Origin: Woeseiaceae bacterium
GTDB lineage: Bacteria > Pseudomonadota > Gammaproteobacteria > Steroidobacterales > Woeseiaceae
Assembly (NCBI GenBank): GCA_011772865.1
Contig: WVYQ01000025.1
Location: 13,060-48,545 of the forward strand
Reading direction: 5' to 3'
DNA: 35,486 bases
Shown here: positions 1,233 to 20,495 of the stretch, in pieces
Layout: each line of letters opens with the position of its first letter
Position numbering within the stretch: the stretch's first letter is position 1
Made by a program: the position numbers and the translations under genes
The notes under the pieces: model-generated
What the model saw: the letters and a program-made list of their open reading frames with translations, nothing else
Databases searched by the model: none
What the model was told of the DNA's origin: nothing

Positions 1233-1241
1233 CGATTCGGT

Positions 1242-1408: not shown

Positions 1409-1505
1409 AGTAGGGTGCTTTTGAAGCGTTTATTGGGGACAGGGCCTCTCTTTTTGCAGCCGGACAGGTTTTATGGGGCGGGCCAGATTCGTGTACATTG
1501 ACACC

Positions 1506-3749
1506 ATGACGTCGGCCCAACGCACGCGAACTGTCCGATTGCTTGTACGAGTTGCGATCAGCGCCGGAGCACTTGCGTTGTTCACCATGCATATCGCCCA
1601 CAGCCCCCGTTTCGAAGTCATCGACCGTGTTGAGAATTATCTTTATGACGTACGCGTCAGGCTCACGATGCCGGGTACGATCGATGAACGCATCGTCATC
1701 GTCGACATTGACGAGGCCAGCCAGGCAGAACTCGGGCAGTGGCCGTGGCCGCGAAATACGCTGGCAGACATCATCGATAAGCTGTTCGATGCCTACGGGA
1801 TACGTGTCCTCGGGCTCGATGCATTGTTTGGCGAAGCCGAGGAAACGTCGGCCGAAAGACTGCTTGATGAACTGGCGGCCAGCGACATTGGAGCCGACCC
1901 GGTGGTTGGCGCCGAACTCGCACGGTTACGTAAGACCCTCGACAGCAATAGTCGTTTTGCAGAGTCTTTTATCGCGCGGGACGTAGTTACCGGTTTCGTC
2001 TTCAAAGACTATCTCGGCGGCAATGAGCCCGAGGCAACAGGCGTATTGCCGCAGCCGATAGTCCACGCCGATGCGCTACGGGGTGTCTCGGTACCGTTCG
2101 TCGAAGCCGTGGGTTTCGCCGGCACCCTGCGCGAGTTGCAGGAAAATGCGATGGCGGGCGGCTTCTTCGACTCTCCGATCATCGACGCGGACGGCGTATT
2201 CCGCCGTGCACCGCTCGTGCAGCGATACAAAGGCGACCTGTATCCATCATTGGCGCTGGCGGTGGCGCACGTCATTCTCGGGCAACCCGATGTGAGCCTG
2301 AGTTTTGCGCCCGGTGCGCAGCTTGGCGGCATCGAACTCGAACATCTGCTACTGGGATCCCAACTTGTCCCTGTAAACGAGCAGGTGGCGGTATACATTC
2401 CGTACCGAGGCCCGCAGGAAAGCTTTGCATTTGTCTCGGCGAAGGATGTGCTTGACGGCTCGGCGCCACACGCATTGCTCAACGGCAAGATCGTGCTCCT
2501 CGGAGCCAGCGCGGCCGGTCTGCTCGACTTGCGCTCCACGCCGGTCGGCCAGCGTTACATCGGTGTCGAAGTACATGCGAACCTGATCGCAGGCCTGCTG
2601 GACAATACGATCAGGCAGCAACCGGCGTGGTCCGACGGTCTCGAGTTCACACTGCTCTTAATTACTGGCTTGCTTATGGCGCTGCTGTTGCCACGTCTTG
2701 CACCGGTGACGTCACTGATCTTCGTCATTGCAATCGTCGCCTTTGCGATGGCCGGAAACCTCTGGCTTTGGATGTCGTTCGGACTCGTCGTGCCACTCGC
2801 ATCGCTGCTCGTTTACACAATGCTCGCGGCCATGCTGCAAATCACGTATCGGTTCTTCGTCGAACAGCGAAACAAGCGTCACTTGTCGCAGATGTTCGGT
2901 CAGTATATTCCCCCGTCGCTTGTCGAAGAGATTGATGAAACCGGCGAGGAAATTTCTCTTGAAGGCGAATCACGCGAAATGTCGGTGTTGTTCTCGGATG
3001 TGCGTGGCTTCACCACGATCTCGGAAAGGCTCGACGCGATCGAGCTGACGCAGATGATGAACGAGTTCCTGACACCATTTACTCGCGCCATCCAGATGCA
3101 CCGCGGTACGATAGACAAGTACATGGGTGATTGTGTGATGGCGTTCTGGGGCGCGCCCCTTGCAGATCCGGAGCATGCGCGCCATGCACTGCTCTCGGCA
3201 TTCGACATGATTGCGGCTGTCAGGGCCCTGGACGAACCGTTCGCTGCGCGAGGCTGGCCAGCTATTCGAGTCGGCGTCGGCATTGCGAGCGGCGAGATGA
3301 ACGTTGGCAACATGGGTTCGGAGTTTCGCATTGCCTATACCGTCATGGGCGACACCGTGAACCTGGGCTCGCGGCTGGAGGGGCTCACCAAACAGTATGG
3401 CGTCGACATCATCGTCAACGACCAGACAACCAAACTCGTTCCTGATTACACGTTTCGTGAACTGGACCTCGTGCGGGTCAAAGGAAAGAATAGGCCTGTC
3501 GCAATTTTCGAGCCGCTCGGGCCCGGCGGCGAAATCAGCCGAGAAACGGCACAGGAACTGGCGTTATATGGCGCGGCGCTTGCCGCCTACCGGAGCAGGG
3601 CCTGGAATGAGGCACAGGACTCATTCCAGGCATTGAAGGACCGCACAGATAACGTCCTATATAATGTGTATCTTGATCGCATTGAGCGGTTCAGGGCCGA
3701 GCCACCACCGGATGACTGGGACGGAGTCTTCGAACACCTGAGCAAATGA
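1506..3749 (+). CDS. CHASE2-domain membrane adenylate/guanylate cyclase
   Basis: A 747-residue class III nucleotide cyclase. After an N-terminal membrane anchor (about residues 12-35), a periplasmic CHASE2 sensor domain (about 35-365) includes DERIVIVDIDEASQAELGQW. Three hydrophobic segments follow (about 379-450), then the cytoplasmic catalytic domain (about 488-670). Visible catalytic features are the metal-binding aspartates in FSDVRGFTT and DKYMGDCVMAFWG, the lysine of that second motif as seen in adenylate cyclases, and the Asn/Arg pair in VNLGSRLEGLTK. It probably makes cAMP in response to a periplasmic signal. An in-frame ATG at 1473 would add MGRARFVYIDT; 1506 is preferred because the protein then begins in the usual MTSAQRTRTVRLLVR style, but the ribosome site is weak for both. 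It heads a ten-gene run containing a protein with two cyclic-nucleotide-binding domains. Confidence 0.9.
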   Translation: MTSAQRTRTVRLLVRVAISAGALALFTMHIAHSPRFEVIDRVENYLYDVRVRLTMPGTIDERIVIVDIDEASQAELGQWPWPRNTLADIIDKLFDAYGIRVLGLDALFGEAEETSAERLLDELAASDIGADPVVGAELARLRKTLDSNSRFAESFIARDVVTGFVFKDYLGGNEPEATGVLPQPIVHADALRGVSVPFVEAVGFAGTLRELQENAMAGGFFDSPIIDADGVFRRAPLVQRYKGDLYPSLALAVAHVILGQPDVSLSFAPGAQLGGIELEHLLLGSQLVPVNEQVAVYIPYRGPQESFAFVSAKDVLDGSAPHALLNGKIVLLGASAAGLLDLRSTPVGQRYIGVEVHANLIAGLLDNTIRQQPAWSDGLEFTLLLITGLLMALLLPRLAPVTSLIFVIAIVAFAMAGNLWLWMSFGLVVPLASLLVYTMLAAMLQITYRFFVEQRNKRHLSQMFGQYIPPSLVEEIDETGEEISLEGESREMSVLFSDVRGFTTISERLDAIELTQMMNEFLTPFTRAIQMHRGTIDKYMGDCVMAFWGAPLADPEHARHALLSAFDMIAAVRALDEPFAARGWPAIRVGVGIASGEMNVGNMGSEFRIAYTVMGDTVNLGSRLEGLTKQYGVDIIVNDQTTKLVPDYTFRELDLVRVKGKNRPVAIFEPLGPGGEISRETAQELALYGAALAAYRSRAWNEAQDSFQALKDRTDNVLYNVYLDRIERFRAEPPPDDWDGVFEHLSK

Positions 3750-3764
3750 CCGTGGGGGGTCTCG

Positions 3765-5102
3765 ATGCTGAGGCTGATTGCTACAACAGTGGTCGCGCTA
3801 GTGTTCTGCGTACTGGCGCCATCGAGCGTCCATGCGCAGCAGACCGTGCAGGTGAGTACGGTGGCCGAGCTGCGCCAGGTACTGGGCGAGGCTGAAACGC
3901 TGCTCGCGACCGGTAGTGCGCAGGCGGCTTATGCGCTGTTGCAGCCACTCGAATCAGAGCATTCCGGAAACACCTTTTTTGACTACCTGCTTGGTGTGGC
4001 CGCGCTGGACTCCGGCCGCATTGCCGAAGCGGTACTCAGTTTGCAGCGTGCGGCCCTTTCGGCTCCAGAGTTCTCCGGCGCCCGCATGGAACTTGCGCGG
4101 GCTCATTTCGAAGGCGGTGATCTTGACGAAGCGCGCCCACTATTTGCTGCTCTATTGAGCGAAAACCCGCCGCCTGCCGTGCGCGCTGTCATCGACCAGT
4201 ACCTCACGGCGATCAATGCGACCCCCGGCACACCGCGCAGCGACTTTCGTCCCTACGCCGAACTCATGGTTGGCCATGATGACAATGCCAATGGATCGAC
4301 TGACAATCAGCAGTTCCTCGGTTTTGCGCTGACGCCCGAAAACCTCGCAACCGAATCATCGTTTTTCGAAGGCGGCGCCGGATTCAACTGGACCGTACCG
4401 CGTAGCGCGAGATTCGCCTGGCATCTCGGCGCACACGCCGGTTACCGCAAGAACCCCGACGCTTCGTTCGTCGACGCCGGGATACTGAGTGGCATCGGCG
4501 GCATGATCTGGCAGAGCGGCGCCAATTTCGGGCGCTTTAGCGTAGACGCCTACGCCGCAAGTCGTGACGGTGAATCCAACGAGTCTTACACGGGCGCCAA
4601 CCTGCTCATAGGCCGGCGACTCAATGAGCGCTGGGAGCTTAGCCTGGCACTGCGTGGCGGTGCCTTGCGTTACGACGAAGCCATCGAGGTGCTCGATGTC
4701 GATCGCCTGCTTTACACGGTAGGCCTCGCTTATCGGTTCCAGGCCCGGGGACAACTCGCGTTAGAAGCGATAGGCGGCGAAGACAGCGAACGACAATCCG
4801 GCTCGCCATACGGCAATTCGAAGTCAGGTGCGCGACTGAGTGTCAATACCGCGATTGGCGATAACACGTACCTGTTTGCATCGGTCGGCAGTCTAAGGAG
4901 CGATTTCGATGAACTGTTTTTTGGCGCGCCGCGTAAAGACACGCAATTGTCGTCCGTAGTGCAGATCGAATTTCGTGACGTCATGACAGACGGCCTATCG
5001 ATCGTGCCGCGACTCCGCTACATCGACAACGAATCCGACGTTTCGCTCTATGACTGGGACCGCACCGAAGTCGGGCTGCTGATTCGATGGGAGCCAAGAT
5101 GA
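3765..5102 (+). CDS. TPR-repeat protein with C-terminal outer-membrane beta-barrel
   Basis: A 445-residue exported protein. The start at 3765 follows a GGGGGGT ribosome site, and residues 1-24 form a signal peptide ending SSVHA-QQ. Residues about 30-150 contain TPR-like helical pairs (AYALLQPLESEHSGNTFFDY, then GRIAEAVLSLQRAALSAPEF). From about residue 160 the pattern becomes alternating amphipathic strands beginning with YAELMVGHDDNANGSTDNQQ and ending with a C-terminal aromatic/charged strand (GLLIRWEPR), as in outer-membrane barrels. The layout recalls the Slam/DUF560 class but I cannot assign a substrate. It lies 15 nt after the cyclase gene and overlaps the FecR gene by 4 nt (ATGA), so it belongs to the same unit. 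CHASE2 cyclases are often found beside TPR-barrel and FecR genes, but the joint function is unknown. Confidence 0.82.
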   Translation: MLRLIATTVVALVFCVLAPSSVHAQQTVQVSTVAELRQVLGEAETLLATGSAQAAYALLQPLESEHSGNTFFDYLLGVAALDSGRIAEAVLSLQRAALSAPEFSGARMELARAHFEGGDLDEARPLFAALLSENPPPAVRAVIDQYLTAINATPGTPRSDFRPYAELMVGHDDNANGSTDNQQFLGFALTPENLATESSFFEGGAGFNWTVPRSARFAWHLGAHAGYRKNPDASFVDAGILSGIGGMIWQSGANFGRFSVDAYAASRDGESNESYTGANLLIGRRLNERWELSLALRGGALRYDEAIEVLDVDRLLYTVGLAYRFQARGQLALEAIGGEDSERQSGSPYGNSKSGARLSVNTAIGDNTYLFASVGSLRSDFDELFFGAPRKDTQLSSVVQIEFRDVMTDGLSIVPRLRYIDNESDVSLYDWDRTEVGLLIRWEPR

Positions 5103-6781
5103 ATAAGCACCCTGTCTCGAGATTGTTTGCGCTGGCTTTGCTGTTCGCTACGGGCAATGCCCCGGCACAGGATGCTGGCACCGTCTTGTTTGCGACCGGT
5201 AGCGTAACGGCCGAACGTCAGCCAGCCGTTTCATTGGAGAAAGGTGACGCGATACTCGCCGAGGACTTCGTCATCACCGGAGACGCTTCGCGTGCCCAGC
5301 TCTTGATGATTGACGACGCTAAAATCGCGATCCGGCCAAACAGCCGCGTGCAGATCGGAGAATATGTTTACGCCTCGTCGGAAAGCACGGCCGGCCCGGC
5401 CGTCGTCACGAGTGATGACAATAGCAGCGTTCTGAATCTTGTCAAAGGCGGCTTCCGCACGATCACGGGCGCGATTGGCAGGGAAGACCCCTCCGATTAT
5501 GAAGTACGGACAGCCGTTGGTGTGCTCGGTATTCGCGGCACCGACTTTGCCGCACTGCTCTGCAGTGGCGACTGTGATACGGCGCCCGGAGTGACGCCCG
5601 GTGCCACGGTACCGGACGGTCTGTACCTGATGGTGCTCGACGGCAGCATAGCGTTCAGCAACGAGATAGCGACGCTTGTGCTCGTCGCAGGCGAGTATGC
5701 CTACATTCCGTTTGATACACGTCAGCCCGCACGCCTGGACGAAGCGCCGCCGGTTTTCATCGACGATTCCGATTTCCGTTTCGGTGACGATCTCGATGAT
5801 GATGGCATTGTGGACCCACCGGATGATGCGGTGCCGCCTACCGGTTTTGATGCGGCACTTGGCACACGTCGCGCACCCGATTCCAGCGCACAGCAACCCG
5901 CCAGCGATGCGGACACCAGCGATGACACGGGACGGGAGCCGCCGGCGCAGCAGATACGGGGCATCGGTAGCGACGGAAATGAAGTGGACCTGACGCCAGG
6001 CGGATTGCCCGATCCGCAGAATCGGACAATCGGTTTCTCAACGGGACCGCTCGGCCTCGTGGATACGGTCTGGAGCTTCGTTTCCGACAACCTGTCGGGT
6101 GAATACCAGCTCGACGGCAACAACAACGTTACGAGTTTTACGGGTGGTTTCCCGTTACGCAGCGGGCCTGATACGGCAACCTTCGATATTGGCTCGTCAG
6201 CGAACGTGGACACTGGATTCGACTCGGTGACCGTGCTTCGCTGGGGGCGCTGGGCCGGCGGCATGGCATCGATCACGCTCAGCGACGGCACCGTCACAGG
6301 CCAGGACCTCGGCACGCAAAGCATTCACTGGGTCAGCAGCCCGCAGTGGACAGCCGCGCCCGCCATGCCCATTGCCGGCACGGCCAGTTACACGCTCATT
6401 GGCAACACGTCACCAACCGATAACTTTGGCAATACCGGTGTACTCGGAGCGGCAACGTTTGATGCCGATTTCACGAACATGCTGGTCGACAGCACGCTCG
6501 TCATCGATATCAATGGTGCCAGCTGGACGGCGGCGGGCCAGGGCAGCATCGGCGCCGCGGCACAACTACCCGCCCACCTGTTCCAGGGCATTTACAACAA
6601 CGTAACGATCACCGACCCAACCGGCACAGCGATTGGGAGCGGTAGCTTCTCTGGCTTTTTCAGCGACTCCGGCCCGGCCTCGGACCCGACATTTCCGGGT
6701 GGCGTCGGCCTGACGTTCAGCTTGCAGGACCAGGGCGGTACGGTCTCTGTGTCCGGTGCCGCCGCATTTGGCAATCCGTGA
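5099..6781 (+). CDS. FecR-domain exported protein
   Basis: A 560-residue exported protein. The start at 5099 forms an ATGA overlap with the preceding stop and has GGGAG upstream; an in-frame ATG four codons earlier is less likely. A signal peptide (about residues 1-24, ending NAPAQ-DA) is followed by a FecR-like domain (about 30-200) with the typical stretches GDAILAEDFVITGDASRAQL, IAIRPNSRVQIGEY, NLVKGGFRTITGAIG and YEVRTAVGVLGIRGTDF. The middle is an Asp/Pro-rich linker with little predicted fold (about 225-300). The C-terminal part is Gly/Ser/Thr-rich and resembles the lipocalin/barrel-like tails of FecR-domain surface proteins. In FecR itself this domain passes a signal from the outer membrane; here no sigma factor is adjacent, so a structural or sensing role next to the CHASE2 cyclase is inference. 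The next gene overlaps its stop by 4 nt (GTGA). Confidence 0.82.
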   Translation: MNKHPVSRLFALALLFATGNAPAQDAGTVLFATGSVTAERQPAVSLEKGDAILAEDFVITGDASRAQLLMIDDAKIAIRPNSRVQIGEYVYASSESTAGPAVVTSDDNSSVLNLVKGGFRTITGAIGREDPSDYEVRTAVGVLGIRGTDFAALLCSGDCDTAPGVTPGATVPDGLYLMVLDGSIAFSNEIATLVLVAGEYAYIPFDTRQPARLDEAPPVFIDDSDFRFGDDLDDDGIVDPPDDAVPPTGFDAALGTRRAPDSSAQQPASDADTSDDTGREPPAQQIRGIGSDGNEVDLTPGGLPDPQNRTIGFSTGPLGLVDTVWSFVSDNLSGEYQLDGNNNVTSFTGGFPLRSGPDTATFDIGSSANVDTGFDSVTVLRWGRWAGGMASITLSDGTVTGQDLGTQSIHWVSSPQWTAAPAMPIAGTASYTLIGNTSPTDNFGNTGVLGAATFDADFTNMLVDSTLVIDINGASWTAAGQGSIGAAAQLPAHLFQGIYNNVTITDPTGTAIGSGSFSGFFSDSGPASDPTFPGGVGLTFSLQDQGGTVSVSGAAAFGNP

Positions 6782-9147
6782 GTTTCGACGTCGTCATTGT
6801 CGGTAGTGGGCCGGCCGGCCTGAGTGCGGCCGCCCGCGCCGCCGAACTCGGTCTCGAGTATGTGTTACTCGAGGCAACCGCCGCGCCGGCCAATACCATC
6901 CAGCGGTATCAGAAGGGCAAGCACGTCATGGCCGAGCCAACGGTTGTGCCGCTCAGGAGTGACCTCGAGTTTTCTGCCGGGACCCGCGAAGCCGTGCTTG
7001 GCGCCTGGCAGGACGGCATTGTCAGGCTCGGCGTCAACGTGCGTTACAGCGCAGAAGTGACGGCTATCTCCGGTGCAGCGCCGAATTTGGAACTGACACT
7101 GGCTGACGGCGAAGCGCTGCAGGCCAAGGCCGTGATTCTCGCAATCGGCCTGCAAGGTAACCCGCGCAAGCTCGGTGTTCCTGGAGAGAACGGCGACTTC
7201 GTGCAGTATACGCTCGACGACCCCGACGAATACCAGGGCGAAACGATTGTCATTGTAGGCGCAGGCGATGCAGCGATCGAGAACGCCATCGCCCTCGCGC
7301 GCAGCAACTCGGTCATCATCATCAATCGCCGCGACGAATTTGCGCGCGCCAAGGAAGGCAATCTCAACCTGATCACGCGGGCCATCGAAGACGGCTCCAT
7401 TACCTGCTTCTACAAGACCAACGTCGCGTCGGTCGACGCCAGCCGGAGCATCGTCCTTAACACCGAAACCGGACAAACGCGCGTTAACTGCGACCGCATC
7501 ATCGCGCGCCTCGGCGCTATTCCACCGCGCGGATTCGTCGAATCGTGCGGTATCGAATTCCCCAGCGATGACCCGACAACGCTGCCGGAACTGACTGGCC
7601 GCTATGAGTCTAATGTGCCCGGCCTGTATGTCATTGGCGCGCTTGGCGGCTACCCGTTGATCAAACAGGCAATGAACCAGGGCTACGAGGTCGCCGAATT
7701 CATCGCAGGCAACGACATCCTCCCGGCCGACCACAGTATCTTGGAGCAGAAATTTCGCAGCCTGCCTTTTGGTAACGACGTCGACGGCACGCTGAGCCTG
7801 ATTCGCAAGCGCATACCGTTGTTCGCCGACATCAACGGACTCGTACTGCGGGAGCTGGTGCTGGCCAGTGAGATTCTGACCCCCAGGGCCGGTGATGTGA
7901 TCTTTCAGCAGAATGACTACACGAATTCGTTCATCACGATCATTGAAGGCGAGGTCAGTATCGAGACAGACGGTGGCAAGTCGATACGCCTCGAACGCGG
8001 CCAGTTCTTCGGCGAAATGAGCCTGTTGTCGGGTCGTCGCCGTTCAGCCACTGTGCGCGCATCGGTTGATTGCGTATTGCTTGAATCACCGCGCCGCGAA
8101 ATTATTCGCTTGATGAACACCTACAAACGCGTGCGACGAATCATCGACCAGTTTTTCATTATTCGCACGCTGCGTGCCGGGCTCGTCCCGGACCTGCCAT
8201 TTGATAAGGTTGCCGCCGTAGCGGCGAAGACCGAACTCAAGTTGTTCAAGGCAGGGGACGAGCTGTTCGCCGAGGGTGATGATGGCGACGGGCTGCACCT
8301 GATTCGCAGCGGCTCGGTTTCGGTAACCCGGAACATCGGCGGCCGTGACATCGTGACGACTTACGTCGCAGCCGGCAACTACGTGGGCGAAATGGCGTTG
8401 CTCGGCCAGGCGAAACGCTCGGCCACCGTGCGCGCAACGGTTGCAACCGAGTCGATCTTCCTGGGAGCCGACGTGTTCCAGCAACTGTTGTTGTCGCAAA
8501 CCGGCCTGCGCGAGCGCGTGCAAGATACGATGAAAGACCGGCTCAGTGAAAACCTGCGCATGGAAGCCGCACCGGATGCCGGCGACCTGATCTCCTTCCT
8601 GATGCAACAAGGTCTCGGTGAAGCCACTGACGTGTTGCTTATCGACGAATCGCTATGTGTTGGCTGTGACAACTGCGAAAAAGCCTGTGCCGAGACTCAT
8701 GGCGGTACATCTCGCCTCGACCGATCGGCTGGGCCGACATATGCCGAAATCCACGTGCCCACCTCGTGCCGGCACTGCGAAGACCCGCACTGCATGAAAG
8801 ACTGCCCACCCGATGCGATCCGGCGCGCATCCAATGGCGAGGTGTTTATCGAGGACAGCTGCATCGGTTGCGGCAATTGCGAGCGAAACTGCCCGTATGG
8901 CGTCATCCAGATGGCGGGCGAGAAAGAGAGAGCGCCGAACCTGATCTCGTGGATCATGACCGGGCGCGGCGCGGCCCCCGGTCAACGCAAACCGGTCGAC
9001 GCATCGGGGGCGATGAAAAAAGCCGTCAAGTGCGACATGTGCATGGACCTCAAGGGCGGTCCCGCTTGCGTGCGCGCCTGCCCGACGGGTGCCGCACTGC
9101 GTATGAGCCCGGCGGAATTCGTCAACCTGACGAAGAAGGCGAGCTGA
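6778..9147 (+). CDS. Flavin oxidoreductase fused to two cyclic-nucleotide-binding domains and four [4Fe-4S] motifs
   Basis: A 789-residue cytoplasmic fusion starting at GTG, coupled to the FecR stop (GTGA). Residues 1-320 are a thioredoxin-reductase-like FAD/NAD(P)H fold: the FAD motif GSGPAG is at 9-14 and the nucleotide motif GAGDAA is near 161. No redox CxxC is seen in this part, so it should pass electrons onward rather than reduce disulfides. Residues about 350-465 and 475-590 are two CRP-type domains, each with an intact phosphate-binding cassette: FFGEMSLLSGRRRSATVRA near 410 and YVGEMALLGQAKRSATVRA near 535. From 627 come four cysteine quartets (starting near 627, 664, 695 and 752) in the DmsB/NrfC arrangement, the last being C-x2-C-x8-C-x3-C. 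The natural reading is an NAD(P)H- or quinol-linked electron carrier gated by the nucleotide made by the first gene. Electron direction is unknown. Confidence 0.93.
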   Translation: MSFDVVIVGSGPAGLSAAARAAELGLEYVLLEATAAPANTIQRYQKGKHVMAEPTVVPLRSDLEFSAGTREAVLGAWQDGIVRLGVNVRYSAEVTAISGAAPNLELTLADGEALQAKAVILAIGLQGNPRKLGVPGENGDFVQYTLDDPDEYQGETIVIVGAGDAAIENAIALARSNSVIIINRRDEFARAKEGNLNLITRAIEDGSITCFYKTNVASVDASRSIVLNTETGQTRVNCDRIIARLGAIPPRGFVESCGIEFPSDDPTTLPELTGRYESNVPGLYVIGALGGYPLIKQAMNQGYEVAEFIAGNDILPADHSILEQKFRSLPFGNDVDGTLSLIRKRIPLFADINGLVLRELVLASEILTPRAGDVIFQQNDYTNSFITIIEGEVSIETDGGKSIRLERGQFFGEMSLLSGRRRSATVRASVDCVLLESPRREIIRLMNTYKRVRRIIDQFFIIRTLRAGLVPDLPFDKVAAVAAKTELKLFKAGDELFAEGDDGDGLHLIRSGSVSVTRNIGGRDIVTTYVAAGNYVGEMALLGQAKRSATVRATVATESIFLGADVFQQLLLSQTGLRERVQDTMKDRLSENLRMEAAPDAGDLISFLMQQGLGEATDVLLIDESLCVGCDNCEKACAETHGGTSRLDRSAGPTYAEIHVPTSCRHCEDPHCMKDCPPDAIRRASNGEVFIEDSCIGCGNCERNCPYGVIQMAGEKERAPNLISWIMTGRGAAPGQRKPVDASGAMKKAVKCDMCMDLKGGPACVRACPTGAALRMSPAEFVNLTKKAS

Positions 9148-9148
9148 C

Positions 9149-10027: not shown

Positions 10028-10031
10028 CGCC

Positions 10032-11564: not shown

Positions 11565-13537
11565 GGCTGCACGCGATCGGCCTGGCATTGCTGATGCTCG
11601 TGCTGGTTGCCTGCAGTGGCGGGTCGCAGAAGCAGGCCGGCGACGTCGATCCTGCAACACCTGGGTCAGGTTGTGAGGGGTCATGCGGCGATGTCGCAAC
11701 GAGCCTGACGATTGCCGAGGTCGAAACCGTCATCGCCCAGGCGGTGGCCGAAGCGCAGGCGCGTGGCGTCAGTGCGACGATTGCCGTTGTCGACCGAGTC
11801 GGTAACGTGCTCGCCGTGTTCCGCATGACGGGTGCTGCGGCGGCTGTCACGGTGGCTTCGCCCGGCGCCGGGGCCGATGGCGGGCTTGAAGCCGTCAACA
11901 TTGTGCCCGATGCCGCGGCGGCGATCGCCAAGGCCGTAACGGCAGCTTATCTCTCGACCGAGGGCAATGCGTTCACCACCCGGACCGCAAGCCAGATCGT
12001 GCAGGATCATTTCAATCCGCTCGACAACCAGCAACCTGCGGGGCCCTTGTTCGGCGTGCAGTTCAGTCAGCTGGCGTGCTCAGACCTGATGATGCGTTTT
12101 GGCGGCGGCGCACCTTCTGCCGGGCCATTCCGGTCCCCGCTCGGTCTTTCCGCCGACCCGGGCGGCCTGCCGTTGTATAAGGTTGGCACCGCTGTTGGCG
12201 GCGTCGGCGTCATCAGCGACGGACTGTACTCGTTCGACCCGGATATTTCGGATGTCGACAGCGATAACGACGAGTTAATCGCAATAGCGGGTGCGTCGGG
12301 TTTTGCGGCGCCCGATATGCGGCGCGCCAATCGGATCGCTGTTGACGGACGCACGCTACGCTTCACCGATAGCGCTCCCGGCGACCTGATGAGTGATCCG
12401 AACACAGCACCGTCGTTCGCCAGCATCAACAATGTCGTCGGTGCGCTGGTTGCCGTGCCGGGTTACGTTGCAGCCAATGTCAGCGCGGGTACCGCGTTCG
12501 GCCATGCAACATCCGGGATACGTCCCGATGCACTCGACTTCCAGGGTCTCGACGCGTATGTGCTCGTCGACTCACTCGACGCCGAGCGCTACCGGCCCAT
12601 CGCGGGCACGGACGGTGTCAATGCACTTACAGCTGTCGAGGTACAGACGATACTGGCCGAGAGCCTCACGCTGGCCAATCGCATGCGTGCGCAAATCCGC
12701 CGTCCGTTTGGTACACCGGCACGCGTCACAATCTCGGTCGTCGACTCCAATGGCGTAATACTCGGAATCGTGCGCAGCCGCGATGCGCCCGTGTTCGGCA
12801 TAGATGTGTCGTTACAGAAAGCGCGTACGGCGTCGTTCTTTTCGTCGGCCGCCGCTGGCAGCGCTCTCAGCGGCGTACCACCTGCCACGTATCTCAACGG
12901 AGGGCTCGTCGTGCTGCGCAAGGAGCCCCTGTCGCAATACGTGACCGCTGTGCAGACATTCCTGGGCTTGCCGAATGCATTGACCGATGGTGCCATCGCT
13001 TTTTCGGATCGCGCAGGCGGCAACCTGTCGCGACCCTTTTATCCCGATGGCGTCACGGGCAACCCGGAAGGACCATTCAGTAAGCCGGCCGGAGAGTGGA
13101 GTCCGTTCTCAACAGGACTACAGCTCGATCTCGTCTACAACGCCATCATTCAGCATGTCGGTTTCGTCGCCGGGCTTGTGCCGGACGTCCCGGCAAATTG
13201 CACGGGCATCGATGGATTTGACAACGGCTTTGTAACGGCTGGCGTCATCGGCCAGCTTGCTAACGGCACACAGATCTTTCCGGGTAGCGTACCCATCTAT
13301 CGCGGCAACCAACTAATTGGCGGTGTCGGGGTGTCCGGTGACGGTATCGACCAGGACGACATGATTGCATTCCTTGGCGTGCACCGCGCTGGCCAGTCCC
13401 TTGGCGGTTTCGGCAATGCGGACAAAGCCATTCGCAGCGATACCCTGGCTCCGCAAGGGGTCCGACTGCGCTACGTCAATTGCCCTATTTCGCCTTATAT
13501 CGACAGTGACGAGCAGAATGTTTGCGAAGGTAAGTAA
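11561..13537 (+). CDS. Lipoprotein with two GlcG/HbpS-like (DUF336) domains
   Basis: A 658-residue exported lipoprotein: the signal peptide ends in a lipobox Leu-Val-Ala-Cys with Cys18. Two regions resemble the GlcG/HbpS (DUF336) family. The first, from about residue 48, reads LTIAEVETVIAQAVAEAQAR then ATIAVVDRVGNVLAVFRM. The second, from about 350, reads LTAVEVQTILAESLTLANRM, then VTISVVDSNGVILGIVRSRD and SLQKARTASFF. HbpS of Streptomyces binds haem, and other members are accessory proteins of oxidoreductases. Because it sits among multihaem cytochrome genes, haem handling or assembly of the cytochromes is a reasonable guess, but the sequence does not prove it. It overlaps the previous gene by 4 nt (ATGA) and the next by 20 nt. 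Confidence 0.8.
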   Translation: MRLHAIGLALLMLVLVACSGGSQKQAGDVDPATPGSGCEGSCGDVATSLTIAEVETVIAQAVAEAQARGVSATIAVVDRVGNVLAVFRMTGAAAAVTVASPGAGADGGLEAVNIVPDAAAAIAKAVTAAYLSTEGNAFTTRTASQIVQDHFNPLDNQQPAGPLFGVQFSQLACSDLMMRFGGGAPSAGPFRSPLGLSADPGGLPLYKVGTAVGGVGVISDGLYSFDPDISDVDSDNDELIAIAGASGFAAPDMRRANRIAVDGRTLRFTDSAPGDLMSDPNTAPSFASINNVVGALVAVPGYVAANVSAGTAFGHATSGIRPDALDFQGLDAYVLVDSLDAERYRPIAGTDGVNALTAVEVQTILAESLTLANRMRAQIRRPFGTPARVTISVVDSNGVILGIVRSRDAPVFGIDVSLQKARTASFFSSAAAGSALSGVPPATYLNGGLVVLRKEPLSQYVTAVQTFLGLPNALTDGAIAFSDRAGGNLSRPFYPDGVTGNPEGPFSKPAGEWSPFSTGLQLDLVYNAIIQHVGFVAGLVPDVPANCTGIDGFDNGFVTAGVIGQLANGTQIFPGSVPIYRGNQLIGGVGVSGDGIDQDDMIAFLGVHRAGQSLGGFGNADKAIRSDTLAPQGVRLRYVNCPISPYIDSDEQNVCEGK

Positions 13538-15299
13538 AGCGAAGCTGCTCGCATTGATGTTGGTGGCATTCTCTCCGAGCGGTTCGACGATGGCGGAAGA
13601 AATGGCCCTTGATTCACGCCCTGACTGCACGTTCGGCGAAGAGCGTATACGCCGCCGGCCCGGGTCACCAATCCCGGATCAGGGTGCCTGCGAGGATAAG
13701 GGATTGCAGCCTGCCATCTGGCGGCCGCTGCCAGAGTTTGCGGCTGTTCCGGATCGCTGGCGCATCGTATCAGCGCTCGGTTATCCCGAGCGCAAGTGGG
13801 ACCCTTACAACGGCAATAACGTGCTCAAAGGGGACCGTCCGGCTTTCGGGGGGGACTGGTTCTTCTCGATGAGCCTGATTTCGGACTCTACGTTCGAGCG
13901 TCGAAGCATTCCGACCCCAGTCGCCACAGCCACGTCACCGTCAACAGGCTCGATCGACCTTGTCGGCGAGCCCGTCCAGTCAGCCTTCACACAAAACCTG
14001 ATTACGGAATTCGTGCTTTACAAAGGTGACACGGTCTTCAAGCCGCCCGACTGGGAGCTTCGTGTCCTGCCCGTATTCAACTTTACTAGCGTCAAGGTGG
14101 AAGAAGCCGGCCTGCTACGTGTCGATACAACCGAACCGACACGGCGCAACGACAACCATGCCGGCATACAGGGACTTTTCGTCGACAAGCACCTGCGCAA
14201 CGTTTCCGAGCGGTATGACTTCGACAGCCTGCGTATCGGCATTCAGCCAATCACGGCTGATTTTCGTGGTTTCCTGTTCCAGGACGCACCTTTCGGCATT
14301 CGCCTGTTCGGCACGCGCAATAACAATTTGTGGCAATACAACATCGGCCTGTTTCGACGCATGGAGAAAGATACAAATAGCGGCCTGAACGACGTCGGTG
14401 CCGACTTGCGCGATGATGACGTATTTTTATTCAATCTCTACCGGCAAGACTGGCCTTTCTTGGGACTAACCTCGCAGGTCGCAGTTGTACACAACCGCAA
14501 CCGTGAAAACCGGGAACGCTTCGTCGACAACAACGGCTTTCTTACCAGACCTGCGGCTATTGGTACGCAAATGCCGCGCGAATACGATGTCACATACCTC
14601 GGCTATAACGCTGATGGCCACATCGGCAAGTGGAACTTGAGTTTCTCGGGTTACTACGTGTACGGCGAGGAAAGCCGTGGCACGTTCGTCGAGCACAAGA
14701 GCGATATCAGCGCTGCGTTCGCTGCACTGGAAGTCTCGCGCGACTTTGACTGGATTCGCGTCAAGGTGACCGGGCTGGTCGGCACAGGCGATGACGACCC
14801 CTACGACGATCGTTCGACGGCATTTGATGCAATCTTCGAGAACCCGCTCATCGCGGGCGCTGATACGAGCCTCTGGATTCGACAGGCAATCCCGCTGATC
14901 GGCGGTGGGCGCGTGACGCTGTCCGGCACCAACGGCATTCTTAACTCTCTGCGTCCGAACAAGTTCCAGAGCCAGTCCAATTTCACCAACCCGGGAATCC
15001 TGCTCGTGGGACTCGGTGCCGAGCTCGACCTTACACCACAGATTCGTGTCTCGCTCAATGCTAACCAGATCGGGTTCGCCGATACGGCCGTGCTCGAAGC
15101 CGCGCGCAACCAGGCCGGGCTTCGCCGACGAATTGGCGCGGACCTGTCGATGGCGATTACTTACCGCCCGTTCACCTCACAAAACGTCATCCTGCGACTG
15201 ACCGGCTCAATGCTCGTCCCGCAAAAAGGCTACAAAGACCTGTTCGGTTCGGATGACATTCCATACTCCGTTTTCGCAAACCTGGTCCTGGCCTACTGA
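13518..15299 (+). CDS. Predicted outer-membrane beta-barrel protein (porin-like)
   Basis: A 593-residue exported protein. The start at 13518 gives a normal signal peptide (MFAKVSKAKLLALMLVAFSP, cleaved near TMA-EE); the reading frame extends further upstream but only inside the preceding gene. After a short Cys-containing segment (PDCTFGEE, DQGACEDKG) the protein is made of alternating polar/hydrophobic strands with many aromatic residues, for example WELRVLPVFNF, FGIRLFGTRNNNLWQYNIGL and KWNLSFSGYYVYG, and ends with SVFANLVLAY. This suggests a large barrel. It lies between a periplasmic ten-haem cytochrome and a secreted ten-haem cytochrome, the position a porin occupies in porin-cytochrome conduits such as MtrCAB. 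I see no sequence signature of MtrB (no N-terminal CxxC), so equivalence is inference from context. The next gene shares one base with its stop (TGATG). Confidence 0.75.
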   Translation: MFAKVSKAKLLALMLVAFSPSGSTMAEEMALDSRPDCTFGEERIRRRPGSPIPDQGACEDKGLQPAIWRPLPEFAAVPDRWRIVSALGYPERKWDPYNGNNVLKGDRPAFGGDWFFSMSLISDSTFERRSIPTPVATATSPSTGSIDLVGEPVQSAFTQNLITEFVLYKGDTVFKPPDWELRVLPVFNFTSVKVEEAGLLRVDTTEPTRRNDNHAGIQGLFVDKHLRNVSERYDFDSLRIGIQPITADFRGFLFQDAPFGIRLFGTRNNNLWQYNIGLFRRMEKDTNSGLNDVGADLRDDDVFLFNLYRQDWPFLGLTSQVAVVHNRNRENRERFVDNNGFLTRPAAIGTQMPREYDVTYLGYNADGHIGKWNLSFSGYYVYGEESRGTFVEHKSDISAAFAALEVSRDFDWIRVKVTGLVGTGDDDPYDDRSTAFDAIFENPLIAGADTSLWIRQAIPLIGGGRVTLSGTNGILNSLRPNKFQSQSNFTNPGILLVGLGAELDLTPQIRVSLNANQIGFADTAVLEAARNQAGLRRRIGADLSMAITYRPFTSQNVILRLTGSMLVPQKGYKDLFGSDDIPYSVFANLVLAY

Positions 15300-18200
15300 T
15301 GCAGAGACTCACACTTACGTTCCTGACGATTGCGGTATTGCCGGTATTGCTGTTCGCCGCCGAGGGCGAGAAGCCACGCTCGATCGAATACCCGGAGTAC
15401 CCGCCCGCACCTCCCAAGCAGGACCAGGTCGATGCCGACCGCAAGAGCGCGGGTTGCATCACATGCCATACATCGTCTGATGCCGCGACAATGCATGTCA
15501 GCAATGCCGTCATTCTCGGCTGCAGCGACTGCCATGGTGGCGACCCGACTGTATTTCGCCCGGACGGCGCGCCGTCTGGCAGCTTCATCGATGAGATGCG
15601 TGACCGCGCCCACGTGCAGCCACTCTATCCCGAGACCTGGCACTACCCGTCGAGCGCGAACCCGAAGCAGTCATATACGCTGCTTAACTACGAAAGCCCG
15701 GCGTTCATCCGCTTCGTCAACCCGTCAGACTACCGTGTCGCCAGCAAGGCCTGCGGCGCCTGCCACCAGCCGATCATCGACGCCAATATCCGCAGCATGA
15801 TGGCGACTGGCGCCATGCTCTGGGGCGGTGCGGCTTACAACAACGGCATTCTCCCGTACAAGAACTATATCCTCGGCGAGAGTTACACCGAAGACGGTGA
15901 AGCCGCGATGATCACGGGCGCACCGGTCGATCCCGAATTGGCAGCGAAGCACGGCATCCTGCCGGCGCTGTACCCGCTGCCTACCTGGGAAAATGTCGAA
16001 CCCGGCGACGTGTTTCGTGTATTCGAGAAAGGCGGGCGCAATATTCTCAACCTGTTCCCCGAAACCGGAAACCCGAATGTTGTCGGGCAAATCCAGCGCC
16101 TCGAGGAACCGGGCCGCCCGGATATACGCCAGTCAAATCGGGGTCCCGGAACCGGCGCGCGCATCTCGGTGCCGCTCATCAACATTCACAAGACACGTCT
16201 CAACGACCCTTTTACCTGGTTCCTCGGCACCAATGACCAGCCCGGTGACTATCGTTCGTCGGGTTGTGCCTCTTGCCATGTGATCTACGCAAACGACCGC
16301 GACCCGCGCCATTCGGGCCCTTACGCCGAATACGGCCATAGCGGCGAGACTGTCACGGCCGACCCGGCGATCCCGGTCGGCAGGTCGGGTCATCCGCTCG
16401 AGCATAAGTTCACGCGCGCCATACCGACAAGCCAGTGCATGGTCTGCCACATGCACCAACCGAACATGTTCGTGAATTCCTATCTTGGCTACACGATGTG
16501 GGACTACGAGTCCGACGCGCCTCGTATGTGGCCAGAGCAACAGCGCTACCCGAGCATCGAGGAACAGCGGGAGGTGCTTGATCGCAATCCCGAAGGTGCC
16601 GCCGTTCGAGGTCTCTGGAGTGATGTCGAATTCCTGAAAAAGGTCTCCGAGCTGAACCCGGTATTGCAGGACACTCAGTTCGCTGACTACCACGGCCACG
16701 GCTGGAATTTCCGCGCCGTGCATAAGCGTGACCTCGAGGGCAATTTGCTCGATGCCGACGGCGACATCGTATCGAACGATGACCCCGACAAGTTCAAGAA
16801 AGCTGTGCACCTGTCATCGATTCATGTTGACAAGGGCATGCACTGCGTCGACTGTCACTTCACGCAGGACAACCATGGCAACGGCCATTTGTACGGTGAG
16901 GTTGCGAGTGCGATCGAGATCGAGTGCAAGGACTGCCACGGCACGGCGCAGGCGTACCCTGACCTCAAGACGTCCGGTCCGGCTGCGCCACCGGGCGGCA
17001 CCGACATGCGCCTGTACCGCAATATCGACGGCCAAAAGCGCTTCGAGTGGCGCGATGGCAAGCTGATCCAGCGCTCCGTGTTGAACCCCGGCGTCGAATG
17101 GGTGCTCAGTCTCGTCAAGGACAGCGTCAACCCCGACCATGACGATTACAACGAGAGAGCGGCACGTGCCAAGCTCATGGGCAATGACACCGCAACGCAG
17201 GCGTGGGGCCCCGGAATCGATCTTGTCGATCTTGCGCACCAGGACGAAGAAATCGAGTGTTACACCTGCCATACCTCGTGGATCACGAGTTGCGCCGGTT
17301 GCCACCTGCCGATCGAAGCCAACTGGAAGACCAAGCGGCACCATTATGAAGGTGGTGAGACGCGCAACTACGCCACGTATAACCCGCAGGTCGTGCGTGA
17401 CCAGATGTTCATGCTAGGCAAGCGCGGCCCGGCCAATGACGGCAAGATTGCACCGGTTCGTTCTTCGTCCGCACTCGTCCTGTCGTCGACGAATGCGAAT
17501 CGCGAGCGAATTTACGTACAACAACCGCCGGTCGCGGCCAGCGGCTACAGCTCGCAGGCCATGAATCCGCACTTCCCGCACACGACGCGCAAGACCGAGA
17601 CCAAGACCTGTAGCAACTGTCATCTGACCGAGAATGGCGGTAACAACGCATGGATGGCGCAGCTGTTGCTACAGGGCACGAACTTCGTCAACTTCGTCGG
17701 TTTCCACACGTATGTGGGACTCGAAAACGGTATTGCTGCCGTGCAGGTAACCGAGTGGGATGAGCCCCAGGCCGTCATCGGCAGCTACCTGCATCGCTAC
17801 GCGTATCCGGACAACTACACACGCCATCAAGAAGACGGTAAAAAGCTGCAGACGGCGCATGTATACAACGACAAGCAAACGGGTTGCCTGCAGCTGCGTG
17901 GCGAATATCTCTTTGCGGCGGCCGGCAAGAAGGGCCTGGTCGTCTATGACGTAGCCAATGTCGCGAATAAAGGCTTCAGCCAGCGAATCGTCACCGCGCC
18001 ATTCGCCAAAGTCGGACATGACTCTGTCGTTAACAGCAAGTTCGCGACCTGCGTGGCGCTGCCGACTAACCAACCCGTGCATCCGCCACGCAACGAAGGC
18101 GACCTCATGCGTGTGGACAACCAGGAACAGCCATTCCACCCGATCTACAACTATGCGTTCACGACCGATAGAGTCGAAGGGCTTTTGATAACAGACGTCG

Positions 18201-19000
18201 TGACCTTCGCCGACGGCGACCTCAATAATAACCGGCTCAAAAGCAGCGTGCGCTGGAATCCGGACAACGTGCTGGACGGCGCACGCCACATCACGATCGG
18301 CGGGCACTATGCCTACATTGCGGCAGACCGAGGACTTGTCATTGTCGACCTCGACGACCCGCTGGCGCCGCGGGTGACAGCCGTGGTACCAGTCAACGAC
18401 GTGCGCGCCTCGGCACTGCAGTTTCGATACCTGTTCGCGACCACAGCCGAGGGATTGCGTGTTATCGATGTCACATCACCTGCAAAGCCGCGCCTGGTAG
18501 AGGATGCGCTAGTCCCGATTCAGGATGCACGCCGTGTCTACGTCGCTCGTACTTACGCTTATGTCGCTGCCGGCGCACAGGGTCTCGCAATTGTCGACGT
18601 GTGGGAGGCAGAGAATCCGCGGCTCGATCAGTATTTCAATGCGGGAGGCACGATCCGCGACACACACGATGTTGTTGTGGCATCCACCAACGCGTCGTTG
18701 TTTGCCTATATTGCCGATGGCGACGCCGGGCTCAAGGTCGTACAGCTGACCTCCCCCGACCTGCAGCCGAACTTCTACGGATTCAGCCCCAGGCCCAACC
18801 CGGAGCTGATTGCTACTTATGAAACATCGAGCCCGGCAATGTCACTTTCGAAAGGCCTCGACCGTGACCGCGGCGCCGACGAGACTGGTGGACAAATCGC
18901 CGTGTTCGGCCGCAAGGGCTCACGCCCGTTGACGCTCGAGGAGATGCGGGAGTTGTATCTCGACGATGAAGGAAAACCCTGGTATGTCGAAGATGAATAA
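15299..19000 (+). CDS. Secreted ten-haem cytochrome c fused to an LVIVD-repeat propeller
   Basis: A 1233-residue exported protein. The signal peptide is MQRLTLTFLTIAVLPVLLFA with no lipobox Cys. Ten CxxCH motifs lie between about residues 53 and 775: CITCH, CSDCH, CGACH, CASCH, CMVCH, CVDCH, CKDCH, CYTCH, CAGCH and CSNCH. From about residue 850 to 1190 come repeats typical of the LVIVD family, for example YLFAAAGKKGLVVYDVANVA, YAYIAADRGLVIVDLDDPLA, LFATTAEGLRVIDVTSPAKP and YAYVAAGAQGLAIVDVWEAE. These predict a beta-propeller. The fusion suggests an electron-carrying part attached to a binding or docking part, in the periplasm or outside the cell. It is translationally coupled to the barrel gene (TGATG) and overlaps the next cytochrome gene. 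Confidence 0.93.
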   Translation: MQRLTLTFLTIAVLPVLLFAAEGEKPRSIEYPEYPPAPPKQDQVDADRKSAGCITCHTSSDAATMHVSNAVILGCSDCHGGDPTVFRPDGAPSGSFIDEMRDRAHVQPLYPETWHYPSSANPKQSYTLLNYESPAFIRFVNPSDYRVASKACGACHQPIIDANIRSMMATGAMLWGGAAYNNGILPYKNYILGESYTEDGEAAMITGAPVDPELAAKHGILPALYPLPTWENVEPGDVFRVFEKGGRNILNLFPETGNPNVVGQIQRLEEPGRPDIRQSNRGPGTGARISVPLINIHKTRLNDPFTWFLGTNDQPGDYRSSGCASCHVIYANDRDPRHSGPYAEYGHSGETVTADPAIPVGRSGHPLEHKFTRAIPTSQCMVCHMHQPNMFVNSYLGYTMWDYESDAPRMWPEQQRYPSIEEQREVLDRNPEGAAVRGLWSDVEFLKKVSELNPVLQDTQFADYHGHGWNFRAVHKRDLEGNLLDADGDIVSNDDPDKFKKAVHLSSIHVDKGMHCVDCHFTQDNHGNGHLYGEVASAIEIECKDCHGTAQAYPDLKTSGPAAPPGGTDMRLYRNIDGQKRFEWRDGKLIQRSVLNPGVEWVLSLVKDSVNPDHDDYNERAARAKLMGNDTATQAWGPGIDLVDLAHQDEEIECYTCHTSWITSCAGCHLPIEANWKTKRHHYEGGETRNYATYNPQVVRDQMFMLGKRGPANDGKIAPVRSSSALVLSSTNANRERIYVQQPPVAASGYSSQAMNPHFPHTTRKTETKTCSNCHLTENGGNNAWMAQLLLQGTNFVNFVGFHTYVGLENGIAAVQVTEWDEPQAVIGSYLHRYAYPDNYTRHQEDGKKLQTAHVYNDKQTGCLQLRGEYLFAAAGKKGLVVYDVANVANKGFSQRIVTAPFAKVGHDSVVNSKFATCVALPTNQPVHPPRNEGDLMRVDNQEQPFHPIYNYAFTTDRVEGLLITDVVTFADGDLNNNRLKSSVRWNPDNVLDGARHITIGGHYAYIAADRGLVIVDLDDPLAPRVTAVVPVNDVRASALQFRYLFATTAEGLRVIDVTSPAKPRLVEDALVPIQDARRVYVARTYAYVAAGAQGLAIVDVWEAENPRLDQYFNAGGTIRDTHDVVVASTNASLFAYIADGDAGLKVVQLTSPDLQPNFYGFSPRPNPELIATYETSSPAMSLSKGLDRDRGADETGGQIAVFGRKGSRPLTLEEMRELYLDDEGKPWYVEDE

Positions 19001-20300
19001 ACGGATCCGCGCCCAAGGGGCGCTTTTGCTGGCAATGATTAATGTGCCGGCACTCGCGGCAACGCTGCCGGAGTCCAGCGTGGAGAAACACATGGGCGTA
19101 GCTACCTGTGCGTCCTCGCAATGCCACGGGTCGGCTATTCCACGTGACGGCACGGGCGTCTTGCAGAACGAATATGTCACCTGGACGCAGTCGGACCCAC
19201 ACTCAAAGGCCTACGAGATATTGAGCAACGAGCAATCGCGCCTGATCGCGTCACGCCTCGGTATCGGTCGTGCACGTGAGGCTGATGTCTGCCTCGATTG
19301 CCACGCCGACAATGTGGCCCCGGACAAGCGCGGTGACAAGTTCCAGCTGTCCGACGGCGTCGGTTGCGAAGCCTGCCATGGCGGTGCCGAAAATTGGCTC
19401 TCGACCCATTACAAAGCACCCGAAGTCACGCACCAAGCGAACCTGCAGGCAGGCCTGTATGCCAATGAAGATGCGGTCGATCGTGCCAACCTTTGTTTGT
19501 CCTGCCACCTCGGCACACGCGACAAGTTTGCGACGCACAAGATCATGGCTGCCGGTCATCCGCGACTGGTATTCGAACTCGACACATTCACCGAACTGTG
19601 GCGCACAGCGGGGCGGCAGCCGCACTACCGTGTCGATGCCGACTATCGCGAACGCAAGGACATCGATGGTCACGTCTATACCTGGGCAGCCGGGTTACTG
19701 GCCGAAGCACGGCGGCGCCTCGACCTGATACAGAGCCATTATTTCGATGTTCCGGGTATGTTTCCCGAACTCGCGTTCTACGATTGTCACGCTTGCCACC
19801 GTACGATGAAGACCGTGCAGTGGCGCTCGCTGCCACGCCATGGTGGCGTCGGTCCCGGCACTCCGTTCATCAATGACGGCACGTTCGTCATGTCACTCGC
19901 GCTGGCGCGCGCCATCGAGCCAGGTGAAACCGAAGGACTGATCAATGCCCTCAAACGCATCCACCGTGCAAGCATTACGAGCGTCGACGCCATTCGCGAG
20001 GCGGCAACTGAACTCGATTCGATCCTTGCACGAATGGGGTCACGATTGACGCCGGCGAGGTTACGCGGCCGCGAAGCAAAAATACTCGAAGAAATTCTCG
20101 CCACGGGCGCCGAAGGCAATTACCTGGATTACGTCAGTGCAGAGCAAGCATTTATGGCTGTACAGACGCTTGTCATCGAACTCGACGATCCGATTCTGGA
20201 AGCTGAACTCGATTTGCTGGCCGATTCACTCAACAATGACGAACGCTATCGGCCGTCGGAGTTTCGGCGGCTGCTATCTGCCCTGCAGGAAGAAGACTGA
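18984..20300 (+). CDS. Cytochrome c554-like multihaem cytochrome (four CxxCH plus one CX4CH)
   Basis: A 438-residue exported protein. In-frame ATGs at 18966, 18984 and 18993 all overlap the previous gene; 18984 is chosen for AAGGA about 11 nt upstream, but 18993 (MNKRIRAQGALLLAMINVPA) gives an equally good signal peptide. The haem sites are CASSQCH (four residues between the cysteines), CLDCH, CEACH, CLSCH and CHACH. Sequence such as NEYVTWTQSDPHSKAYEIL and HKIMAAGHPRLVFELDTF is typical of the cytochrome c554 (Cytochrome_C554) family, which carries electrons in the periplasm. CX4CH haem sites are known from tetrahaem cytochrome c3, so the first site is probably functional. The C-terminal ~130 residues are helical without haem sites. 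It is the last gene of the ten-gene run; no clear U-rich terminator follows. Confidence 0.9.
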   Translation: MSKMNKRIRAQGALLLAMINVPALAATLPESSVEKHMGVATCASSQCHGSAIPRDGTGVLQNEYVTWTQSDPHSKAYEILSNEQSRLIASRLGIGRAREADVCLDCHADNVAPDKRGDKFQLSDGVGCEACHGGAENWLSTHYKAPEVTHQANLQAGLYANEDAVDRANLCLSCHLGTRDKFATHKIMAAGHPRLVFELDTFTELWRTAGRQPHYRVDADYRERKDIDGHVYTWAAGLLAEARRRLDLIQSHYFDVPGMFPELAFYDCHACHRTMKTVQWRSLPRHGGVGPGTPFINDGTFVMSLALARAIEPGETEGLINALKRIHRASITSVDAIREAATELDSILARMGSRLTPARLRGREAKILEEILATGAEGNYLDYVSAEQAFMAVQTLVIELDDPILEAELDLLADSLNNDERYRPSEFRRLLSALQEED

Positions 20301-20465: not shown

Positions 20466-20495
20466 GTCGTGCCCGCATGCTAGGATTGTGCCGCT

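Follow-up and report, generated by a model that had tools for sequence, protein, structure and literature searches.

The closest described systems to the locus considered here are PCC3 and PCC4, which He et al. (2017; PMC5566968) define by gene content, leaving the electron donor and the control open. In their account, such a set combines a porin and multihaem cytochromes with an inner-membrane protein (IMP) that has one SGXXG and two WX3HX13H motifs, the HX13H helices being likened to ferric reductases; in subgroup II of PCC4, the gene for an Fe-S protein (PF13247) lies upstream of the IMP gene. Their model has electrons from a donor outside the cell enter the quinone pool, and the term 'cyclic nucleotide' does not occur in the main text of that paper. 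The locus studied here lies in the window, i.e. the whole stretch of 35,486 nucleotides that was analysed (G000:C43:13060-48545, no N among its letters), from a gammaproteobacterial bin that is 84.6% complete; the nearest protein relatives of its products come from Woeseiaceae or Gammaproteobacteria bins. On the evidence used throughout, namely sequence, synteny and prediction, we consider it reasonably probable that the ten genes at 1506-20300 (Table 1) encode a PCC3/PCC4-related trans-envelope conduit whose cytoplasmic entry subunit is under cyclic-nucleotide control.

Table 1. The ten genes of the unit, named in the text by the first position given here (cNMP, cyclic nucleotide monophosphate; TM, transmembrane segment)
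Predicted product	Position	Strand	Support
CHASE2 adenylate-cyclase-type membrane sensor, 747 aa	1506..3749	+	PF05226 183 bits, PF00211 74 bits
Slam-like outer-membrane protein, TPR + SlipAM barrel	3765..5102	+	PF14559 43 bits; PF04575 25.8 bits, cut-off 22
FecR-domain protein, probably secreted	5087..6781	+	PF04773 34 bits
Putative entry subunit: FAD/NAD(P) reductase + two cNMP domains + 16-Cys ferredoxin part	6778..9147	+	Pfam, NCBIfam profiles
Inner-membrane protein, PCC3/PCC4 IMP signature	9149..10027	+	Motifs; weak cytochrome-b561/DUF4405, below cut-off
Predicted cytoplasmic FHA - TM - periplasmic decahaem cytochrome	10032..11564	+	PF00498 26 bits; 10 CXXCH
HbpS-like lipoprotein	11561..13537	+	PF03928 68 bits, three stretches
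Predicted outer-membrane beta-barrel, about 18 strands, AlgE/OprD-like fold	13518..15299	+	Structure prediction
Decahaem cytochrome, signal sequence + C-terminal LVIVD repeats	15299..19000	+	10 CXXCH; PF08309 72 bits
Pentahaem C554-type cytochrome, 4 CXXCH + 1 CX4CH, signal sequence	18966..20300	+	PF13435 49 bits

The first-pass annotation had read this region as a gap-free unit of ten genes. All ten open reading frames (ORFs) are present on the same strand, and the earlier domain assignments and the estimate of about 25 c haems were borne out by Pfam profiles and motif counts (10 + 10 + 5 = 25 c-haem sites). Successive junctions measure 15, -16, -4, 1, 4, -4, -20 and -1 nt, and the final two genes overlap; from this spacing only, we infer that the ten genes are co-transcribed. 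A consensus scan over 1200-20600, which is weak evidence, revealed no surplus of sites within the unit, with 4 promoter-like sites versus 6.5 in shuffled sequence and 15 terminator-like sites versus 17.8.

The proposed conduit module and its conservation

The Cys pattern in the ferredoxin part of the 6778 product points to four [4Fe-4S] clusters, and the product matches PF13247 with 42 bits. Its 16 Fe-S cysteines are all kept in 79/79 aligned relatives, as are E413, R422 and E538 of the two cNMP sites, while R547 is kept in 78/79; Glu and Arg are presumably the residues expected in a cNMP phosphate-binding cassette, after CRP. With such conservation, the cNMP-site residues are therefore kept also where no cyclase is near. 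Thioredoxin and bacillithiol disulphide reductases have as their hallmark a redox-active Cys, either in CXXC or in GXGPCG, and this alternative assignment was rejected: the redox Cys is missing, position 13 being Ala in the window, G, A or S in 75/79 relatives and Cys in 4/79. Outside the Fe-S part, Cys 210 (71/79) and Cys 432 (67/79) are common, but there is no CXXC. Because of its FAD fold, nucleotide fold, four-cluster pattern and lack of redox cysteines, the 6778 product fits the role of an NAD(P)H-to-Fe-S entry subunit. In L217 (genome G093), the homologues of 6778 and 9149 form one 1120-aa frame with no stop, a natural fusion which supports direct contact between the putative entry subunit and the membrane protein.

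The four-His membrane protein of the earlier annotation proved to carry the full IMP signature (W78-H82-H96, SG119-123, W266-H270-H284), with the SGXXG and both WX3HX13H motifs in 46/46 aligned rows (the window and 45 of 70 usable sequences from the loci). The AF2 model of 9149 (pLDDT 88) has five long helices, and the protein is presumed to bind two haems b. The 10032 product has a single TM at 139-157, which would place the FHA domain in the cytoplasm and the ten haems in the periplasm. Phosphothreonine-binding FHA domains make their contacts through GR, Ser and Asn; GR is found in 68/68 sequences of the family and Asn in 55/68, the Ser contact being absent from the window's protein.

Among the outer-membrane proteins, the 11561 product contains LVAC, which we take to be a lipobox. 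The 13518 product has no Pfam match; an alignment of 39 of the 57 usable locus sequences plus the window led to a predicted 18-stranded, AlgE-like barrel, in agreement with the outer-membrane barrel first proposed. The proposal of an outer-membrane pore stands, on prediction, as far as the barrel is concerned; that it encloses a cytochrome, or that the pore carries electrons, would be a further supposition, the 18-strand model being smaller than the MtrB barrel, which has 26 strands. The 15299 product scores 68 bits against NCBIfam ExtM, far under the cut-off of 800. The pentahaem gene may start with the ATG at 18966, 18984 or 18993, and its 4 + 1 haem pattern is kept in 27 of the 29 family members found, the remaining two (L163, L164) being cut by locus ends.

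Relatives of the 6778 gene were collected by scanning genome contigs with an alignment of eight homologues, the best 80 of at least 532 confirmed being kept, and iterated profiles of the ten window proteins, built from those same loci, were run on the 80 loci. Where enough downstream sequence was available, same-strand downstream partners were of the 9149 type in 69/76 loci, of the 10032 type in 70/73, of the 11561 type in 61/65, of the 13518 type in 56/60 and of the 15299 type in 53/55; for the ten loci departing from this pattern, including seven without 9149, the membrane protein is present in the genome (10/10). Because the profiles were built from the same 80 loci, an independent draw was checked, consisting of 397 genomes drawn evenly from the phylum and searched for the membrane protein alone (21 genomes with a match at 1e-10). 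Leaving out the window itself and the partial matches G199 and G371, 18 places were fetched, so that the conduit family occurs in about 4% of the Pseudomonadota sample (18 places in 397 genomes, one a distant variant and one without an entry subunit nearby). The order 6778-9149-10032 is kept in 16/18 places, with L218, the distant variant, among them; the other two are L217, with the fused frame described above, and L211, which has no 6778 homologue nearby. At least one of the 11561, 13518 and 15299 genes is found in 10/18 regions, in five of these (L205, L207, L209, L213, L215) on the opposite strand.

Judged by synteny, the core from the 6778 flavo-ferredoxin to the 18966 pentahaem protein is a conserved proteobacterial module, made of a block A (cytoplasm to periplasm) and a block B (outer membrane) that are rearranged and often kept together. 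The view that the genes form a single system, for which co-occurrence in other genomes had been set as the check, is thus upheld by both the partners and their order. The distribution is patchy among the host's relatives, where a full-length 6778 homologue was found in 9/60 genomes, its own included and one split over two contigs. As a separate observation, a short unannotated gene lies between the FHA-decahaem and HbpS genes in L121 (15013-15429), with like genes in nine other loci (cluster c3); the gene clusters concerned have alphaproteobacterial titles, and the one c3 gene scanned gave no Pfam match.

Cyclic-nucleotide enzymes beside the proposed conduit

The first three genes of the unit form a triplet. 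The 1506 product, for which an alternative start at 1473 is possible, has CyaB (3r5g) as its best PDB sequence match and contains FSD at 496, DKYMGD at 537 and VMGDTVNLGSRLE at 613, which we take to be the full catalytic set with adenine-type Lys/Asp; with its CHASE2 domain and a cyclase domain that has the catalytic residues (their roles as we understand them), it falls into the CHASE2 class III nucleotide cyclases. The 3765 product has a hydrophobic N-terminal signal and, with TPR and a PF04575 score over the cut-off, resembles Slam proteins, which lie beside a lipoprotein cargo; its neighbour 5087 has no Pfam match over residues 301-564, its C-terminal part.

A link to cyclic-nucleotide enzymes had been suggested from the window alone, and is corroborated by the cyclase triplet and by a phosphodiesterase, both of which recur beside conduit clusters. 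That the cyclase belongs to the unit holds only in part: it is co-located here, but where 6 kb or more of sequence is available upstream, the cyclase is found there on the same strand in just 8 of 47 loci, and the triplet, which also occurs without the conduit (G495), is an add-on. Five of the eight are of the window's genus (L049, L050, L051, L053, L055), and the others are Chromatiales-, Steroidobacteraceae- and Rheinheimera-titled bins. The cyclase profile matches 13 of the 80 loci in all, i.e. the eight, L052 (cut) and four which are not in a triplet: L076, where another gene sits between, and L089, L094 and L098, with the cyclase on the other strand. In G051, G484 and G461, the same triplet follows the pentahaem gene on its downstream side, and in G044 (L043) it lies upstream, with about 1.4 kb of other sequence before 6778. 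In the cyclase tree, a single clade (local support 0.97) unites the upstream and downstream cyclases with that of G042 and separates them from stand-alone paralogues; it also contains the cyclases of G495, G551 and G487, all without a conduit match. In a sample of the order (n = 147), the linked-type cyclase (at least 52% identity) was found in 16 genomes, the conduit (E below 1e-100) in 14 and both in 12.

On a plasmid of Sphingobium herbicidovorans, pMSHV (L274), the order is 6778-9149-10032-metallophosphoesterase, with block B divergent. The last enzyme belongs to superfamily PF00149 and reaches neither equivalog cut-off, with 133 bits against SpdA (cut-off 400) and 78 against CpdA (cut-off 225); a second such enzyme from another cluster scored 137 and 97. 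(The FHA-decahaem family occurs on 12 Sphingobium plasmid records, the listed ones of 0.95-1.28 Mb and one typed as conjugative.) Family f69, presumably Sphingomonadaceae given that its enzymes share 43-69% identity with this phosphodiesterase, has the gene directly after 10032 in 9/9 clusters fetched from the phylum sample. When 11 genomes were searched, it was the sole match in nine, G444 having a second at 26 bits and G381 none. In a sample of f69 (n = 149), the phosphodiesterase was present in 58 genomes, the conduit in 52 and both in 52; in 48 of these 52 the phosphodiesterase gene follows that of the membrane protein on the same strand, at a distance of 1760-2109 nt, and of the other four, two are on split contigs and two rearranged. 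The f69-type phosphodiesterase was found in none of the 80 loci.

The two enzymes occur together in three conduit clusters outside Gammaproteobacteria. In G644 (f69), the CHASE2 cyclase and phosphodiesterase adjoin block B, and the genes for FecR and for a SlipAM barrel (23.4 bits, cut-off 22) separate these two from block A, on mixed strands; in G607 (f69), block A has phosphodiesterase, CHASE2 cyclase and FecR genes next to it; in G272 (f68), phosphodiesterase and CHASE2 cyclase lie between blocks A and B. Six f69 genomes have the phosphodiesterase but no conduit: G661 adds a cyclase to it, G707 a cyclase and FecR, and the remaining four showed no cyclase within the fetched stretch.

It is conceivable that the triplet is an independent sensory operon co-transcribed with the conduit by chance, and that the cNMP domains are structural or read a global pool. 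The 8/47 count would agree with this, as would G495, which has the triplet and no conduit, and the host genome's total of 4 matches to class III cyclase domains and 12 to cNMP domains, the window's own included. An accidental association would not, on the other hand, readily account for a single cyclase clade having the triplet on either side of the conduit, for the recurrence of triplet or cyclase in clusters outside the class, or for the association of a phosphodiesterase with the conduit, and we regard it as rather unlikely. Since cyclic-nucleotide genes repeatedly lie beside related clusters and the entry subunit has cNMP domains, the wire may instead be switched by a second messenger. Our proposal, which is tentative, is that the conduit would be switched post-translationally by a cyclic nucleotide at two entry-subunit sites, with the cluster supplying a cyclase (Woeseiaceae and relatives), a phosphodiesterase (Sphingobium-type) or both (G644, G607, G272), and that electrons from NAD(P)H would bypass the quinone pool.

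Several points weigh against this proposal and the conduit on which it builds. Most of the 80 clusters, with a cyclase profile match in only 13, have no nearby cyclase. The cyclase type occurs without a conduit match in G495, which is a one-contig genome, in G551, and in G487 and G042 (73% and 82% complete), and the reverse is true of G503 and G563; G467 has its cyclase on a different contig from the conduit. The phosphodiesterase lacks a conduit in 6/58 f69 genomes. The 52% cyclase limit was set after looking at the data, and the Fisher values for the order sample (1e-12) and for f69 (8e-34) ignore shared ancestry, phylogenetic dependence inflating such association counts. Because the phosphodiesterase scores higher against SpdA, a name given for 2',3'-cyclic nucleotides, than against CpdA, 3',5'-cyclic AMP (cAMP) is not assured, and the ligand may be another cyclic nucleotide. 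As for the conduit itself, the HbpS, barrel and LVIVD-decahaem genes are outside the fetched stretch in 8/18 phylum-sample places, some stretches stopping at contig ends; the 13518 barrel looks AlgE-like; and the Ser position of the FHA domain is Arg in the window and Ala in 35/68, Ser being absent from the six commonest residues.

Other features of the window are listed here in their own right. Upstream of the unit, an enoyl-CoA-hydratase gene runs divergently on the minus strand (ORF 429-1601), with the domain extending downwards from about 1175. A c-di-GMP-I (GEMM-I) riboswitch, with cyclic di-GMP (c-di-GMP) or cyclic GMP-AMP (cGAMP) as ligand, is predicted at 32814-32926 (RF03167, 70.5 bits over 59), followed directly by a cytochrome c gene (32953-35484) that runs past the window edge and whose product combines 4 CXXCH with a cadherin-like domain. 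Two membrane-anchored TPR proteins (21407-23260 and 28757-30979) have no cyclase domain by Pfam; proteins of this type are often fused to class III cyclases. Finally, adjoining genes for a fatty acid desaturase, a cyclopropane-fatty-acid-type synthase and an FAD oxidoreductase (23873-27213) form a small lipid-modification cluster.

Direction and use of the proposed electron flow

In the path that we envisage, electrons would pass from NAD(P)H through FAD and the four [4Fe-4S] clusters of 6778 to the two haems b of 9149, then to the FHA-anchored periplasmic decahaem 10032, and lastly to an outer set composed of barrel 13518, LVIVD-decahaem 15299, pentahaem 18966 and HbpS lipoprotein 11561. The CHASE2 cyclase 1506 would act on the entry subunit through cAMP, opening or closing it, and the Slam-like barrel 3765 may place the FecR protein 5087 at the surface; elsewhere, a phosphodiesterase would remove the cyclic nucleotide and so set the activity of 6778. 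Complex formation, ligand, gating, substrate and the role of the FecR and Slam-like proteins are all what we infer from the sequences.

Outward flow seems the likelier direction, because the entry subunit has an NAD(P)H module. It appears quite unlikely that the same conduit works inwards, with Fe(II), Mn(II) or another donor outside the cell feeding quinone or NAD(P)+, considering this FAD/NAD(P) module, the presumably uphill reduction of NAD(P)+ from Fe(II), and hosts such as Dokdonella, Solimonas, Lysobacter and Sphingobium, which we take to be ordinary heterotrophs. Inward flow is nevertheless what He et al. (2017; PMC5566968) model for PCC3/PCC4, and the module includes an FHA-decahaem family, a comparable description being given for a protein of iron oxidisers (PMC10734462; see below).

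A different use of outward electrons would be a regulated, NADPH-driven reductase at the cell surface that makes nutrients (ferric iron or haem) accessible, with HbpS and FecR acting in iron or haem handling and no respiration involved. The HbpS-like lipoprotein is indeed a regular member of the block (61/65), the FecR protein and Slam-like barrel adjoin it, the AlgE-like barrel would in our judgement suit solute passage better than a threaded cytochrome, and the likeness of the HX13H helices to ferric reductases (PMC5566968) points the same way. However, 25 c haems seem to exceed any assimilatory need, and the Pfam scan revealed no iron transporter among the ten genes, which makes this explanation doubtful. 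If the switched conduit that we favour is real, a conduit family would take its electrons from NAD(P)H and be gated by a second messenger, placing the control in the entry protein itself would differ in principle from CRP-type transcription control, and there would be a means of turning extracellular electron flow on and off.

Comparison with described conduits

The first-pass annotation, while naming MtrCAB and Pcc, knew of no conduit that combines a cyclase with a cyclic-nucleotide-gated entry subunit. This has to be corrected in so far as the kind is already described: PCC3/PCC4 (He et al., 2017; PMC5566968) agree with the unit in their membrane protein, in the Fe-S entry protein and in overall arrangement. 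Like PCC4 in that account, the unit has a putative porin, three multihaem cytochromes and an IMP with SGXXG, two WX3HX13H and five TM (motifs in all 46 rows, five helices in the model), and, as in subgroup II, its PF13247 gene is directly upstream of the IMP gene, with a 1 nt gap. It differs in having cytochromes of 10, 10 and 5 haems instead of 4, 5 and 10, and in its FHA domain, LVIVD decahaem, HbpS lipoprotein and FAD reductase fused to the Fe-S protein. The distant variant L218 (G188) consists of a C554-type cytochrome, a cNMP + Fe-S protein, an IMP and a decahaem protein, matched by the window profiles with 57, 188, 64 and 54 bits, and is read as a PCC4-like set whose Fe-S gene itself has cNMP domains.

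In PCC3, the periplasmic cytochrome is described with 21-27 haems and the extracellular one with 10-35 (PMC10734462), unlike the 10 and 10 haems found here. PCC3-like clusters occur in relatives of the host from its own taxonomic order (L248-L250), with the same IMP motifs and a related Fe-S/FAD protein nearby; their cytochromes are 18-21-haem and 21-43-haem. Because its cytochrome composition differs from theirs, the module is set beside PCC3/PCC4 and not inside; as far as the sequences go, it is a relative of the described kind with other cytochromes, and new as a variant. The same source lists, under 'Other', a 10-haem Forkhead-associated protein (cluster 403) in 27/87 genomes of Gallionellaceae iron oxidisers, which by its description shares FHA and ten haems with the 10032 family and may belong to it.

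With MtrCAB and PioAB, the unit shares a decahaem cytochrome, an outer-membrane barrel and an inner-membrane entry, whereas the 13518 barrel is not matched by TIGR03509 (MtrB/PioB family). The sole match to this profile in the host genome is at C45:349547-351382 (375 bits over 240), a true MtrB/PioB-family barrel, and the host probably carries an Mtr-type conduit besides the unit. In Shewanella, as proposed here, cAMP affects an electron conduit; there, it does so via CRP and on transcription, whereas in the present locus the cNMP domains lie inside the electron-entry protein.

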